The position numbers and the translations under genes are program-made. From IMG/VR virus record IMGVR_UViG_3300034072_001152, positions 1 to 56,520 of that record: a DNA stretch of 56,520 nt. One strand, 5' to 3'. This DNA is from a virus. The notes beneath the pieces are model-generated. The model was not told the DNA's origin. It ran no database searches and saw only the letters and a program-made list of their open reading frames with translations. The number at the start of each line of letters is the position of its first letter. The stretch's first letter is position 1. Positions 52,176 through 56,520 of the stretch are shown here, piece by piece.

Positions 52176-52415
52176 ATGAAAAGGGTCATTCTTGTCGCCG
52201 CCATATTGCTCGCTGGTTGCGGGCAGAGTGCAGGTGAAAAAGCTGAGGCTGAGTATCGCATCGCTCGCGAGAGCGGGGTGACAAGCGATCAAGCCTGCGA
52301 ATTCGAGACGCGGATCAGAGACGCATACCTGTCTGATGAGAACCGCGAAAAATACCAGCGTTGGCGGATAGCTGCGGCCACGAGCTGCAATGAGGCGGCG
52401 CTTGAACGGCTTTAG
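52176..52415 (+). CDS. Small lipoprotein, 79 aa
   Basis: ATG 52176 gives a short basic start, a hydrophobic core and lipobox LLAGC with Cys15, then an acidic helical mature part with a Cys pair. It is probably anchored in the inner or outer membrane. Lipoproteins of this size in lysogens often block superinfection, but no motif shows that. It overlaps the antisense regulator gene by 4 bases tail to tail. Confidence 0.65.
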   Translation: MKRVILVAAILLAGCGQSAGEKAEAEYRIARESGVTSDQACEFETRIRDAYLSDENREKYQRWRIAAATSCNEAALERL

Positions 52416-52591
52416 TCGAACGCCTTGCTGACTATCCTGCGGATTGCCTCAGGTCGATTTGGACTGTCGGGTTGAGCGCCCCGCCAAGCATCAATGCTGG
52501 CAAGTAAGGCGCTGTCGACGCGCACGGTGATCGGGGTATTAACCCCAGTTGCAGGCCGACCACGCTTTTTTGTGACACCAGTAATTGACAT
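52412..52591 (-). CDS. Ribbon-helix-helix DNA-binding protein, 59 aa, antisense in the late operon
   Basis: A small Arc/CopG-type regulator: basic KKRGRPATGVNTP leads into the strand ITVRV, then helices LLASIDAWRGAQP and RPEAIRRIVSKAF. It is the only leftward gene between 29 and 57 kb and is independently transcribed, as expected for a lysogenic moron or a local regulator of the cassette to its right. Its start region faces the hairpin at 52618. Confidence 0.8.
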   Translation of the reverse strand: MSITGVTKKRGRPATGVNTPITVRVDSALLASIDAWRGAQPDSPNRPEAIRRIVSKAFD

Positions 52592-52680: not shown

Positions 52681-52734
52681 ATGGCTGACGTGACCAATAC
52701 CGCGCTTTGCGCGCTCCGCAAGGGAGGCGCATGA
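52681..52734 (+). CDS. Leader peptide, 17 aa
   Basis: A 17-codon frame (MADVTNTALCALRKGGA) with a strong AGGAGATCGTT ribosome site ends in the start codon region of the next gene (GCATGATGG). Its own good site and the coupled stop suggest translational control of the downstream protein. Confidence 0.5.
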   Translation: MADVTNTALCALRKGGA

Positions 52735-53309
52735 TGGCGGCCTCCAAGACCATTGAGCTTCCCGCTCTGAAGATTCAGACGCTTTCGCTCATGCTGGTGG
52801 GCGATAGCCCGCTGATCGTCCACGCTTGGTCCGAGAAGGCCAAGCGCCAGATGCTCGACAAGCAGATGAAGAAGGCGACCAAGGCCAAGGAGGCGAAAGA
52901 CCCTGAGGCCGATTACGAGGCTTGCTTCTATCGCACGGAAACGGGGGGCTACGGCTTCCCGGCCATTGGGGTGAAGGCGGCGATGGTGTCGGCCTGCCGG
53001 TTCGTGGACATGAAAATGACCGAGGCTCGCGGGGCCTTTCACATCGACTGCGAGATGTTGTCGGTAATCGGCGACCCTCGCCCTCGCGAGGACATGGTGC
53101 GGGTCGGTATGGGCACCGCTGACATTCGCTATCGTCCGGAGTTCCCGCAGTGGAAAATTCCGGTCGACATCAAGTTCAACGCTGGCGTCATCAGTGCCGA
53201 GCAGATCGCAAACCTGCTTAACACGGCGGGCTTCGCCATCGGCATTGGCGAGTGGCGACCGGAGCGCAACGGTTCCTATGGCCGCTTTCATGTCGGGGGT
53301 GGCGAGTGA
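52734..53309 (+). CDS. RAMP/Cas7-like candidate RNA-binding protein, 191 aa
   Basis: Begins with a beta strand TLSLMLVGDSPLIVHAWSEK, has a Lys-rich linker (residues 40-60), then FPAIGVKAAMVSACRFVD, which recalls the PGSSLKG helix of RAMP proteins. A conserved-looking REDMVRVGMGTADIRYRPEF follows, and it ends GFAIGIGEWRPERNGSYGRF, a Gly-rich loop like those of Cas6/Cas7-type RAMPs. No Cas family match is claimed. It is coupled to the leader peptide upstream and to 53309 downstream, and the five-base repeat array follows in the same transcript. Confidence 0.6.
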   Translation: MAASKTIELPALKIQTLSLMLVGDSPLIVHAWSEKAKRQMLDKQMKKATKAKEAKDPEADYEACFYRTETGGYGFPAIGVKAAMVSACRFVDMKMTEARGAFHIDCEMLSVIGDPRPREDMVRVGMGTADIRYRPEFPQWKIPVDIKFNAGVISAEQIANLLNTAGFAIGIGEWRPERNGSYGRFHVGGGE

Positions 53310-53776
53310 TGATCTACAAGTGGAAAGAAGGCGCGCGGGTCAGCATTGACCCGCAAGCCGCTGGCGAAGAAATCGAGCGGGTCCGAGTTGCTCAGAATGG
53401 ACGGCTGCTCGCCCCTGATCTTGTCGAGAGTGCTCGCGACCCGTCATCGCCTCTGCATCCGGCTTTCGAGTGGGATGACGCAACGGCTGCCGAAAACTGG
53501 CGGGTCGAGCAGGCAAGCTACTTGATCCGGTCGATTGAGGTCATCGTCGAGCGGCAGGAAGAAGAAAGGCCGATCCGGGCGTTCGTCTCGGTGAAGCGCG
53601 ATGAGGACCGCTCCTATACGAGCGTTTCGCACGCGATGGCTGACCCCGATCTTCGTCAACAGGTGCTCGCTGGGGCGCTGAAGGAATTGGAAGCGTGGCG
53701 GGTTCGCTACGCAGAGCTTGTCGAACTGGCGAAGGTTTTCGCCGCGATCGACGAGGCTCGGGCCGCCAATGAATAG
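53309..53776 (+). CDS. Partner protein of the repeat cassette, 155 aa
   Basis: ATG 53309 overlaps the RAMP-like stop. A small N-terminal part is followed by a beta pair with FVSVKRDEDRSYTSVSHAMA and a helical C-terminal half (LAGALKELEAWRVRYAELVE). No catalytic residues stand out. The gene ends 12 bases before the first GGC unit of the array, so it is in the same putative operon. Confidence 0.6.
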   Translation: MIYKWKEGARVSIDPQAAGEEIERVRVAQNGRLLAPDLVESARDPSSPLHPAFEWDDATAAENWRVEQASYLIRSIEVIVERQEEERPIRAFVSVKRDEDRSYTSVSHAMADPDLRQQVLAGALKELEAWRVRYAELVELAKVFAAIDEARAANE

Positions 53777-53788
53777 GGCTCGAAACAT

Positions 53789-53945
53789 GGCAGGCGTGGC
53801 AGGGCTAGGCTCGGCAGGGCTCGGCCGGGCGTGGCGCGGCTGGGTGAGGCATGGCAGGCGAGGTTAGGCTCGGCGCGTCCTAGTAGGGCAAGGCATGGCG
53901 GGGCAAGGCATGGCGAGTTGAGGCTCGGCAGGCTTGCCTAGGCAG
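53789..53945 (+). repeat. Five-base periodic GGCNN array (about 31 units)
   Basis: GGC recurs every 5 bases with two variable bases between. The first in-phase run has 13 units (53793-53856), the second 15 units (53857-53930) and the third 3 units (53931-53945). Runs are separated by single 4-base steps. Variants GGT, GTC, AGT, GTT and GCC occur at a few positions. There is no long identical repeat and no open frame. It is followed 20 bases later by a strong terminator, so a transcript would end just after the array. Confidence 0.9.
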
Positions 53946-53964
53946 TCAGCCACTAAGCAACCCG

Positions 53965-53997
53965 GAGGGGGTCACGAAAGTGGCCCCCTCTTTATTT
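53965..53997 (+). terminator. Strong intrinsic terminator before the tape measure gene
   Basis: GAGGGGGTCAC (53965-53975), GAAA loop, GTGGCCCCCTC (53980-53990), then TTTATTT. An 11-bp stem with one T-G pair and a stable tetraloop makes this the best terminator in the window. It separates the cassette and array from the tape measure gene. Confidence 0.85.
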
Positions 53998-54017: not shown

Positions 54018-56520
54018 ATGTCACAATCATCTGTTTTTCCGATTTTTTTGCGAGCCGAATACCGCGATAGCACCGCGCTTCAACGCTTTCAGAGCGATGC
54101 GCAGCGGGCTGCGCAGGCCGCCAAGCGCGAGTTTCAGGGGGTGAAGGCGGCGCTCGACGCGGCTCTGACACGACCTCGCACCAGTGGCGGCAGCCTAGAC
54201 CTAGGGGTTGATGAGCTTCGCCGGGCAGCGCAGGCTCAGCAGGAGGTCGCTGCAGCGGCGAGACAGGTTGCCGAGGCGACCCGGCGAGCAGCACAGGCCA
54301 GCGGGAGCTTTGACGCCTCGCTCTCCCGGTCGACCCGTGCGGCCTTCGAGTATGCGAACGCGCAGGAACGCTCGTCGCGCGAGATGCTTGAGCAGCTCTC
54401 TCTTCTCGACCGCGTGCAGGCTGAGCTAAATCAGGTCGCCAGCGCGTCGGATGCGGTCACGGCAGCGAACCGACGCGGCACCTCGGTATCGGGGCAACAG
54501 CGGCAGGGATTGCAACAGCTCTCGTTTCAGCTGAATGACGTGGCGACGCAATTCGCCCTTGGAGCGAGCGCCACCCAGATTTTCGCGGCGCAGTCGGGTC
54601 AGGTTATCCAGGCGTTGCAGACGATGACGGGAGGCACCAGCCGCCTAGCTGCCTTCCTCGGTGGGCCTTGGGGGTTGGCACTCACCTCGGCCGCGATCGT
54701 CGTTTCACCCTTCATCGGCAGGCTGTTCGAGGCGGGTGAGGCCAGCGACAAGATGAGCAAGGCGCTCGATCAGGCCCGGTTCGCGAGTGACGGCATGGCC
54801 TCGGCTCAGAGCATCCTCGGCGATGTCATCGATCTGACGACCGGCAGGATGAAGGACCAGACCAATCAGGCGGTCATACTCGCGCGGGCTCAGCTGCAGC
54901 TGGCCGAGGTCCGGGCCCGGGTTGCAGCGAATGAAGCGCGCACCACGTTGCAGGGTGCTGCACGGCGGACCACCCAAGTCGATATTGCATCGGCTGGCAC
55001 TGGAAGTTTCGGCGGCACCGTGTTCCGCAGTGTCCGGCGCCCGACTATCTCAGCAGCCGCGGCGCGACAGGCCCTTGCAGGTGATACGCAGGGGGCCCTC
55101 GATGCGCTGAAGGAAGCGGTCGACACGGGCAAGACGACTGCGGCGATCTACGCCGAGACGGCAACGGCGATCGCAAACCTCGGTGCCGAGACTGAAAACA
55201 TGAAGCGGTTCGGCGACGCGCTGCGGGCCTTGGAAGGCGACCAGAGTGCTCTGCGCCAGTTCATCCGTCCTGACAGATCTCGCACGCCGCGCGGTGGCGA
55301 TGAAGCCAAGCGCCAGGCACGGGAGGCGGAACGGCTGGCCACGTTCGGCGAGCAGGCGGCGGAGAGTATCGCCCGGTTGAACGAGCGGTTCGACGAGCAG
55401 CCCCGTTTGATCGATCAGGCATCGCAGGCAACGCGGCAGCTCGATGCGCTGATTTCCGACCTCAGCGAGCGCAAGCCCGCCAACTTCGAGGCTCTGATCG
55501 CCGATGCGGAGAAGGCCAAGGCGACCGTGCAAGCGGCGCTGACCCGTCCCTTCGACGACTTGCGGCGCGAGAGCGAGGAACGCCTTGAGATTGAGCAGCT
55601 GCTCGCGCAAGGCCGGGAAGATGAGGCCGTCGCCTTGCAAGAGGTCTTGCGCCTGAAGCGGCAGATCGGCGGCGTTACCGAAGAGCAGCGCGCCGAGGTC
55701 GAGGCGATCGTTCGGGCCGAAGCGGCCAAGACCCGTGAGCTTCGGGTGCAGCAACAGCTGTTCGCCGCACAACTCGAAGTGATCGACACGGTGCAGCGCT
55801 CGCTCACCGATTTGCTGAGCGGTCGCTCGACCGATTTCTTCGGGGATTTCCGGCAAGCCCTTCGCGACCTGCAAGGGCAACGGCTCTTCGAAAACATCTT
55901 CGGAGAGGCCTTCAGGGGCATCCGGGATGAGCTTCAGGCCAACACGCCGCTTGGCAGGGCGAACAAGGCGCTGGCGGACGAGACGAACAAGGCGGCGCAG
56001 ACCGTCAGTGTTGCGAAAGATGCGCTCGCTGATTTGGCCGACGCTTTTGCTCAGGGTGCAGCCCGCATTCGCAATGGTGGGGCCGCAAACGACAACGGCT
56101 TTGCAGCGGCGTTCGGCAACGGTGCTTCGGTAGGAGCCGGTGCGCTAGGGCTGGGCGGTGCGGCGCAGCGCTTCTTGAACAGCGCCCGAGGTAACGAAAT
56201 CCTTGTCGAAGCCAAGATCGCCCGCAACTCAGTGACCGATCTTGCCAAGCTCATCAGCACGGGCATCGGTGACAGCATCGGAGAGCAGCTCGAGGATGTG
56301 CTGGGCACACGCTTTGCGCAGGTCCTTGGCGACACCATCGGCGGCTTTATCGCCGGCAAGACGCTTGGCGGCACCACGGGCGGCATCTTGGGCGCGCTTG
56401 AGGGCCTGACCGGAAGCATCAAGGGGCTTGAGGGCCTTTCCGAGACGTTCGGCGCTTTCCTGAACGGCTCGGCCATCGGTTCGCAGGTTTCCGGCATCAG
56501 CAAGGCTCTCGGCATCGGCG
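54018..56520 (+). CDS. Tail tape measure protein, N-terminal part
   Basis: ATG 54018 follows GGAAAGAAGAG. The start (FPIFLRAEYRDSTALQRFQS) and LQQLSFQLNDVATQFALGAS with TQIFAAQSGQVIQALQTMTG are typical of prophage tape measures. A hydrophobic segment (LGGPWGLALTSAAIVVSPFI) and long coiled coils follow. No stop occurs before the right end; the frame continues at base 1 (bases 56394-56520 equal 1-127). Whole protein about 1236 residues. Confidence 0.9.
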   Translation, partial: MSQSSVFPIFLRAEYRDSTALQRFQSDAQRAAQAAKREFQGVKAALDAALTRPRTSGGSLDLGVDELRRAAQAQQEVAAAARQVAEATRRAAQASGSFDASLSRSTRAAFEYANAQERSSREMLEQLSLLDRVQAELNQVASASDAVTAANRRGTSVSGQQRQGLQQLSFQLNDVATQFALGASATQIFAAQSGQVIQALQTMTGGTSRLAAFLGGPWGLALTSAAIVVSPFIGRLFEAGEASDKMSKALDQARFASDGMASAQSILGDVIDLTTGRMKDQTNQAVILARAQLQLAEVRARVAANEARTTLQGAARRTTQVDIASAGTGSFGGTVFRSVRRPTISAAAARQALAGDTQGALDALKEAVDTGKTTAAIYAETATAIANLGAETENMKRFGDALRALEGDQSALRQFIRPDRSRTPRGGDEAKRQAREAERLATFGEQAAESIARLNERFDEQPRLIDQASQATRQLDALISDLSERKPANFEALIADAEKAKATVQAALTRPFDDLRRESEERLEIEQLLAQGREDEAVALQEVLRLKRQIGGVTEEQRAEVEAIVRAEAAKTRELRVQQQLFAAQLEVIDTVQRSLTDLLSGRSTDFFGDFRQALRDLQGQRLFENIFGEAFRGIRDELQANTPLGRANKALADETNKAAQTVSVAKDALADLADAFAQGAARIRNGGAANDNGFAAAFGNGASVGAGALGLGGAAQRFLNSARGNEILVEAKIARNSVTDLAKLISTGIGDSIGEQLEDVLGTRFAQVLGDTIGGFIAGKTLGGTTGGILGALEGLTGSIKGLEGLSETFGAFLNGSAIGSQVSGISKALGIG
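56394..56520. repeat. Terminal direct repeat, right copy
   Basis: Identical to bases 1-127. Removing one copy closes the circle and restores one tape-measure reading frame. Confidence 0.95.

Follow-up and report, generated by a model that had tools for sequence, protein, structure and literature searches.

A probable VIPR cassette on a sphingomonad phage carries two delimited guides that appear directed at sibling phages

Introduction

Viral Interference Programmable Repeat (VIPR) systems were first described in a 2026 preprint (PMC13142463; bioRxiv 2026.04.26.720920). According to its main text, a VIPR system comprises a small RAMP protein (Vipr), an accessory gene (vap) and guide RNAs built from 9-16 GGY/NN units, and its target is double-stranded DNA. 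The evidence given there, from other VIPR systems, includes RNA sequencing, copurification, DNA binding and repression assays. Array layouts differ among types: in the SUSP1 clade each guide RNA has an invariable structured 3' tail, and 'staggered arrays' are a topic of the preprint's supplement.

Here we analyze a stretch of 56,520 nucleotides (positions 1 to 56,520 of IMG/VR virus record IMGVR_UViG_3300034072_001152), hereafter the window. An original prediction had proposed that it encodes a phage-borne RNA-guided or RNA-scaffolded system. We identify this system as VIPR from Vipr homology, RAMP fold, a linked array and the main text of the preprint. The SUSP1 locus, which we fetched, agrees with that text: it has the vipr homologue and an accessory gene, preceded by one array and followed by others. 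The window is therefore taken to hold a VIPR system as well.

Results

Cassette genes and position

The cassette is phage-borne, lying in the phage record between tail genes and the tape-measure gene; its neighbors in the window are tail genes. Hosts of three close relatives are Sphingomonas soli, a Novosphingobium MAG and Sphingopyxis indica. The genes are as follows.

52412..52591, minus strand: ribbon-helix-helix-like gene, 59 aa, divergent from vipr; Pfam RHH_1 at E 0.0085, which is below the Pfam curated cut-off
52731..53309, plus strand: vipr, 192 aa, or 191 aa with the ATG at 52734; RAMP-fold protein, putatively guide-RNA binding
53309..53776, plus strand: vap (vipr-accessory), 155 aa; phrog_15946, E 1e-23

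The coupled gene pair that had been predicted is present. From either start (52731 or 52734), vipr ends at 53309 and overlaps vap (53309-53776) by one base, with the array directly behind. As in described VIPR systems, the accessory gene is adjacent, and vap adjoins vipr in most relatives. No similarity between its 155-aa product and the accessory protein of SUSP1 could be detected, and the product has no match in PDB, Pfam, PADLOC or NCBIfam.

Small ORFs resembling the divergent gene occupy the same position in about 10 of 14 sphingomonad relatives, and this gene may belong to the cassette as a regulator. Upstream of vipr, a short plus-strand ORF of 17 codons (52681-52733), whose stop overlaps the vipr start region, is possibly a translational leader.

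Vipr has a predicted RAMP fold

The 52731 product belongs to phrog_4652 (E 6e-33), a family of unknown function, and has no match in Pfam, PADLOC or NCBIfam. A sequence search of the PDB returned one real match, chain D of 36pp, which is the Vipr protein of SUSP1. This match was obtained at E 9e-7 by phmmer with the single sequence and at 1.3e-11 with a profile lacking any SUSP1 sequence.

The protein had been proposed to be RAMP-like, and structure prediction agreed. With 45 aligned relatives as input, AlphaFold2 gave a model with pLDDT 87.8 and pTM 0.80, compared with a pLDDT of 37 for single-sequence prediction. Foldseek comparison of the model to the PDB yielded 50 listed matches, all 50 of which were RAMP or Cas7-type CRISPR effector subunits, including Csm3, type VII Cas7 and Cmr6 (E-values from 1e-5 and weaker, TM-scores ~0.4-0.56). 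The glycine-rich GIGEWRPERNGSYGRF, highlighted in the original prediction, is among the best-conserved stretches of the protein. Thus both sequence (36pp) and predicted structure (AlphaFold2 and Foldseek) characterize the product as an ancestral RAMP homologue of ~20 kDa, as described for VIPR. Because it combines this fold with homology to SUSP1 Vipr, we assign the cassette to VIPR.

Array layout

To delineate the array we used a model consisting of GGY plus two free bases, with slips allowed. The tract at 53793-53945 scored 103. Elsewhere in the window the best chain reached 20, the minus strand reached 15, and 40 order-2 Markov copies of the whole window gave 22 at most. The array had been described as about 31 units of GGC plus two variable bases. 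Its periodicity of five bases holds, but it is not a single run: there are two strict five-base runs, of 12 and 14 units. Nor is the constant triplet strictly GGC; it is GGY, with some GTY. The register is shifted by three four-base GGCA units (53789-53792, 53853-53856 and 53927-53930), giving the following arrangement with its flanking elements.

53758..53783, plus strand: hairpin bordering the array on its 5' side; it overlaps the stop codon of vap
53782..53786, plus strand: invariant GAAAC directly 5' of the first delimiter
53789..53795, plus strand: opening delimiter, GGCA/GGC
53793..53852, plus strand: guide 1, 12 units (GT AG TA TC AG TC CG GT GC TG GA AT)
53853..53859, plus strand: delimiter GGCA/GGC between guides 1 and 2
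53857..53926, plus strand: guide 2, 14 units (GA TA TC GC CT AG AA AT GG AA AT GA GA TC)
53927..53933, plus strand: closing delimiter, GGCA/GGC
53964..53991, plus strand: intrinsic terminator-like hairpin, 12-pair stem with T-rich tail TTATTT

The earlier reading of the array is supported in amended form, with two putative guides rather than one. Both lengths fall within the 9-16 GGY/NN units of VIPR guides. GGCAGGC accounted for 217 of 416 four-base steps across all loci, more than any other junction, and consecutive four-base steps were usually separated by 8-12 five-base units, with a mode of 9-11. A shoulder of short pieces between delimiters probably arises from degenerate arrays and the parser. 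Two neighboring guides of one relative (L002) match two sites 126 bases apart within one gene of another phage, which fits the delimiter as a separator of independent guides. This GGCA-delimited layout is common to the relatives and is new here; the main text of PMC13142463 mentions neither delimiters nor a leader hairpin, while its supplement may mention them.

The hairpin and GAAAC form a leader seen in the sphingomonad relatives. Over 15 relatives, 94% of hairpin cells were paired and three pairs showed two-sided changes. The covariation score exceeded that of 500 out of 500 shuffles and was maximal at slide 0, the true register. Since the alignment tested had also served to propose the hairpin, by eye and with RNAalifold, these values constitute support rather than proof. 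GAAAC was present in 15 of 15 aligned leader sequences. A hammerhead ribozyme, suspected from this motif, is not supported: Rfam shows none in the window, and the Rfam search gave nothing above chance. At the other end, the strong terminator that had been predicted corresponds to a terminator-like hairpin with a T-rich tail, and a hairpin occupies this position in most sphingomonad relatives. Beyond the delimiter and the terminator hairpin, no conserved tail sequence was found 3' of the array, the conserved hairpin lying 5'.

Guides match with a one-base skip

The 35 guides taken from the window and 13 relatives, each read between successive delimiters, were compared with ~570 kb of these phages, with arrays masked. 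E-values were binomial approximations using a match probability of 0.27. Skipping one target base between dinucleotides gave 42 matches at E<1, including 26 at E<0.01. Skips of 0, 2, 3 and 4 bases gave 3, 0, 0 and 5 matches at E<1 and none at E<0.01, and 20 order-shuffles of the guides gave means of 2.9 and 0, respectively. Many of the 42 matches represent one guide on the same gene in several phages. Since homologous genes were matched repeatedly, the 26 stronger matches trace to only five guides, which is the number of independent events.

The same preference was apparent within the guides' own genomes. With a one-base skip, 10 of 35 guides had near-matches in their own genome, all 10 within 6 kb of the array, compared to 1 at each other skip and 1.25 (0.4 near the array) for shuffled guides. 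Among 248 guides from other lineages, 11 had near-matches at their own locus at skip 1, versus 1-3 at other skips and 1.6 when shuffled. Specificity had been predicted to be gapped and carried by the dinucleotides. Indeed, only the one-base skip produced sibling matches, and the main text of PMC13142463 reports the same by experiment. The one-base skip of VIPR is thus found computationally for the sphingomonad subgroup, and for guide 2 of the window through a match of 23/28.

Guides match sibling vipr and tail genes

Four sites in the window are relevant to guide targeting.

53088..53110, plus strand: site in vipr matched 16/16 by a guide of L003, a sibling prophage in Sphingomonas soli
52911..52936, plus strand: site in vipr matched 17/18 by a guide of the sibling phage L041
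54024..54064, minus strand: near-match of guide 2 (22/28, with mismatches) where the phage's own tape-measure gene starts
55419..55453, minus strand: near-match of guide 1 (18/24, with mismatches) in the interior of the phage's own tape-measure gene

The first guide of L003 matches vipr at codons EDMVRVGM, with 16/16 in 9 of 13 sphingomonad relatives (window included) and 13/16 in its own vipr. Similarly, the first guide of L041 matches vipr (DYEACFYRT) with 17/18 in most relatives and 14/18 in its own. Both sites are in codon phase 0, such that the skipped bases are wobble positions throughout. The two L002 guides each match 18/20 in a large ORF downstream of vipr, at the tape-measure position, in the phage of L012; in their own record they reach at best 14/20.

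For the window itself, the best match of guide 2 (23/28) is antisense to the start of the tape-measure gene in the L002 phage. When reversed, the guide reads [DE]SS[IM]FP[IM][FL]L[SR]A[DE]YS, compared to QSSVFPIYLRAEYRD in that gene. Guide 1 reaches at best 18/24, a value that by itself lacks significance in the full search; a tape-measure allele fitting this guide would encode [IM]S[HQ]ATR[DE]L[DE]YLT. The own near-matches of both guides lie in one gene, on the same strand and in the same codon phase. From these sequence comparisons, both window guides would seem to point at the tape-measure gene of a sibling.

Searches of larger collections were negative for the window guides. In IMG/VR, six eight-unit core patterns gave no full-length match for either guide, and the matches did not extend. 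No match with ≤3 mismatches was found for guide 1 or guide 2 in 301 Sphingomonadaceae genomes, nor for guide 2 in further Novosphingobium and Sphingopyxis genomes. The targeted allele is absent from the searched collections and may simply be unsampled. A match of guide 1 to an integrase (20/24, L160-L162) was discounted, since the query pattern itself forced eight of the matching units.

On the simplest reading of these data, guides are directed against neighboring genes in the allele carried by siblings, from which the own allele has diverged. The main competing explanation also invokes VIPR, with the guides autoregulating the phage's own tail genes and vipr through imperfect pairing and the sibling matches being a by-product of homology. 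Such a role would account for the 10 of 35 guides with near-matches within 6 kb of their own array, and for the pairing of the window guides with their own tape-measure gene (22/28 and 18/24). However, own sites are always mismatched, and they match less well than those of siblings for the vipr guides (13/16 and 14/18 against 16/16 and 17/18) as well as for both L002 guides (≤14/20 in their own record against 18/20 in the tape-measure gene of another phage). Moreover, silencing was abolished when NN pairing was perturbed, according to the main text of PMC13142463. We consider autoregulation improbable.

Arrays accompany vipr across other loci

We then examined 60 loci from IMG/VR that encode Vipr relatives. 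Arrays lay beside these homologues in 50 of 60 loci, as opposed to 0 of 51 unrelated phage loci, which upholds the predicted association. In all 50 array-bearing loci the array was on the strand of the gene; none was found on the minus strand (maximum score 17). Among the ten loci with no array, the DNA of some (L009, L044 and L061) ends just after the gene.

This linkage bears on an alternative in which the array acts as DNA, either structurally or by binding protein (for example as an iteron, a recombination or packaging site or a terminator region), and lies near vipr only incidentally. Short regular repeats are common in such elements, and predicted folding of the array RNA is better than that of shuffles (z -3.6). 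A DNA element is nevertheless very improbable given the 50 of 50 arrays on the vipr strand, the hypervariable dinucleotides, the register shifts introduced by delimiters, and the restriction of guide-target matches to a single skip length.

Several loci merit separate description. Six vipr homologues (L049-L052, L057 and L058) have no clear GGYNN array in the fetched DNA. L053 and L057 contain weak tracts rich in GTY, which point to another constant triplet. Very long arrays, with 10 to at least 26 parsed guides, occur in L018 (4584-7131), L015 (4584-5315), L016 (5145-5903) and L020 (5177-5898); that of L018 is broken by an apparent other gene and has GGCC/GTC delimiters. Homologues annotated as 'hypothetical protein' adjoin GGYNN arrays in Mycobacterium phage Pippy (L064), Gordonia phages ODay (L063) and Pipp (L067), cyanophage Cy-LDV1 (L066) and Pseudomonas phage LESphi2 (L065). 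The ODay cassette likewise lies between tail chaperone and tape-measure genes.

Discussion

Our data make it very probable that the window carries a VIPR system on a sphingomonad phage, with two guides aimed at sibling phages and with the phage's own alleles spared. In the proposed mechanism, the array would supply two guides, split by the four-base GGCA delimiters. Each guide RNA would be covered by Vipr, which would keep hold of the constant GGY bases and leave the variable dinucleotides accessible. These could then pair with double-stranded DNA as NNxNNxNN, skipping every third target base, and binding would repress the target gene. Mismatches in its own alleles would spare the phage from its own guides. 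By analogy with the experimentally studied systems, the window copy may be expressed and act in this manner, a model built on what we observed directly: homology, fold, the array and its linkage, siblings matched with a one-base skip, the codon phase of the sites and the mismatches at own sites.

A more specific proposal, to which we give slightly less than an even chance, is that the delimited multi-guide array is a distinct VIPR layout for mutual exclusion among siblings. Guides would be placed on conserved vipr and tail codons, with escape through first- and second-position changes in the phage's own alleles.

From sequence alone, this work independently confirms an RNA-guided recognition code that is both unusual and very recent, and does so for a group of phages not discussed in the main text of PMC13142463. 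The role suggested here, in which related phages aim guides at the vipr and tail genes of each other while their own alleles are mismatched, is testable in culturable sphingomonads such as Sphingomonas soli.

Comparison with known systems

The SUSP1 VIPR (Escherichia phage; type II in the main text of PMC13142463; PDB 36pp) resembles the window in its RAMP-fold Vipr (24% identity), an accessory gene directly behind vipr, same-strand GGY/NN guides, the one-base skip and its location on a phage. In SUSP1, the guide RNAs are separate from one another and each carries a 3' tail; one lies upstream and three lie downstream. The window instead has one continuous downstream tract of two GGCA-split guides, with a hairpin and GAAAC ahead, and an accessory protein unrelated in sequence to that of SUSP1. 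The loci of Mycobacterium cluster phages such as Pippy, of ODay and Pipp (Gordonia) and of Cy-LDV1 share with the window a protein of ~28-44% identity, a related accessory gene and the same kind of array with GGCA delimiters. In these loci, which belong to other hosts, the array can sit upstream of vipr or in the immunity region.

Class 1 CRISPR effectors (Csm3, Cas7, Cmr6) also have the RAMP fold. In these effectors a guide RNA is coated by protein, and target pairing is interrupted at regular steps. In contrast, the window has a single small protein and pentanucleotide guides with two informative bases per unit. The fold could also point to a remnant of a class 1 CRISPR-Cas system that has diverged. 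This is extremely improbable, as Vipr is far closer in sequence to SUSP1 Vipr than to any CRISPR RAMP, neither cassette protein has a PADLOC match, the genes beside them are tail genes with no cas operon, and the window has no regularly spaced repeats of CRISPR size. Altogether, this kind of system has already been described; what is new is that this phage group belongs to it, together with the layout by delimiters, the leader hairpin, and the evidence for guides pointing at the vipr and tail genes of siblings.
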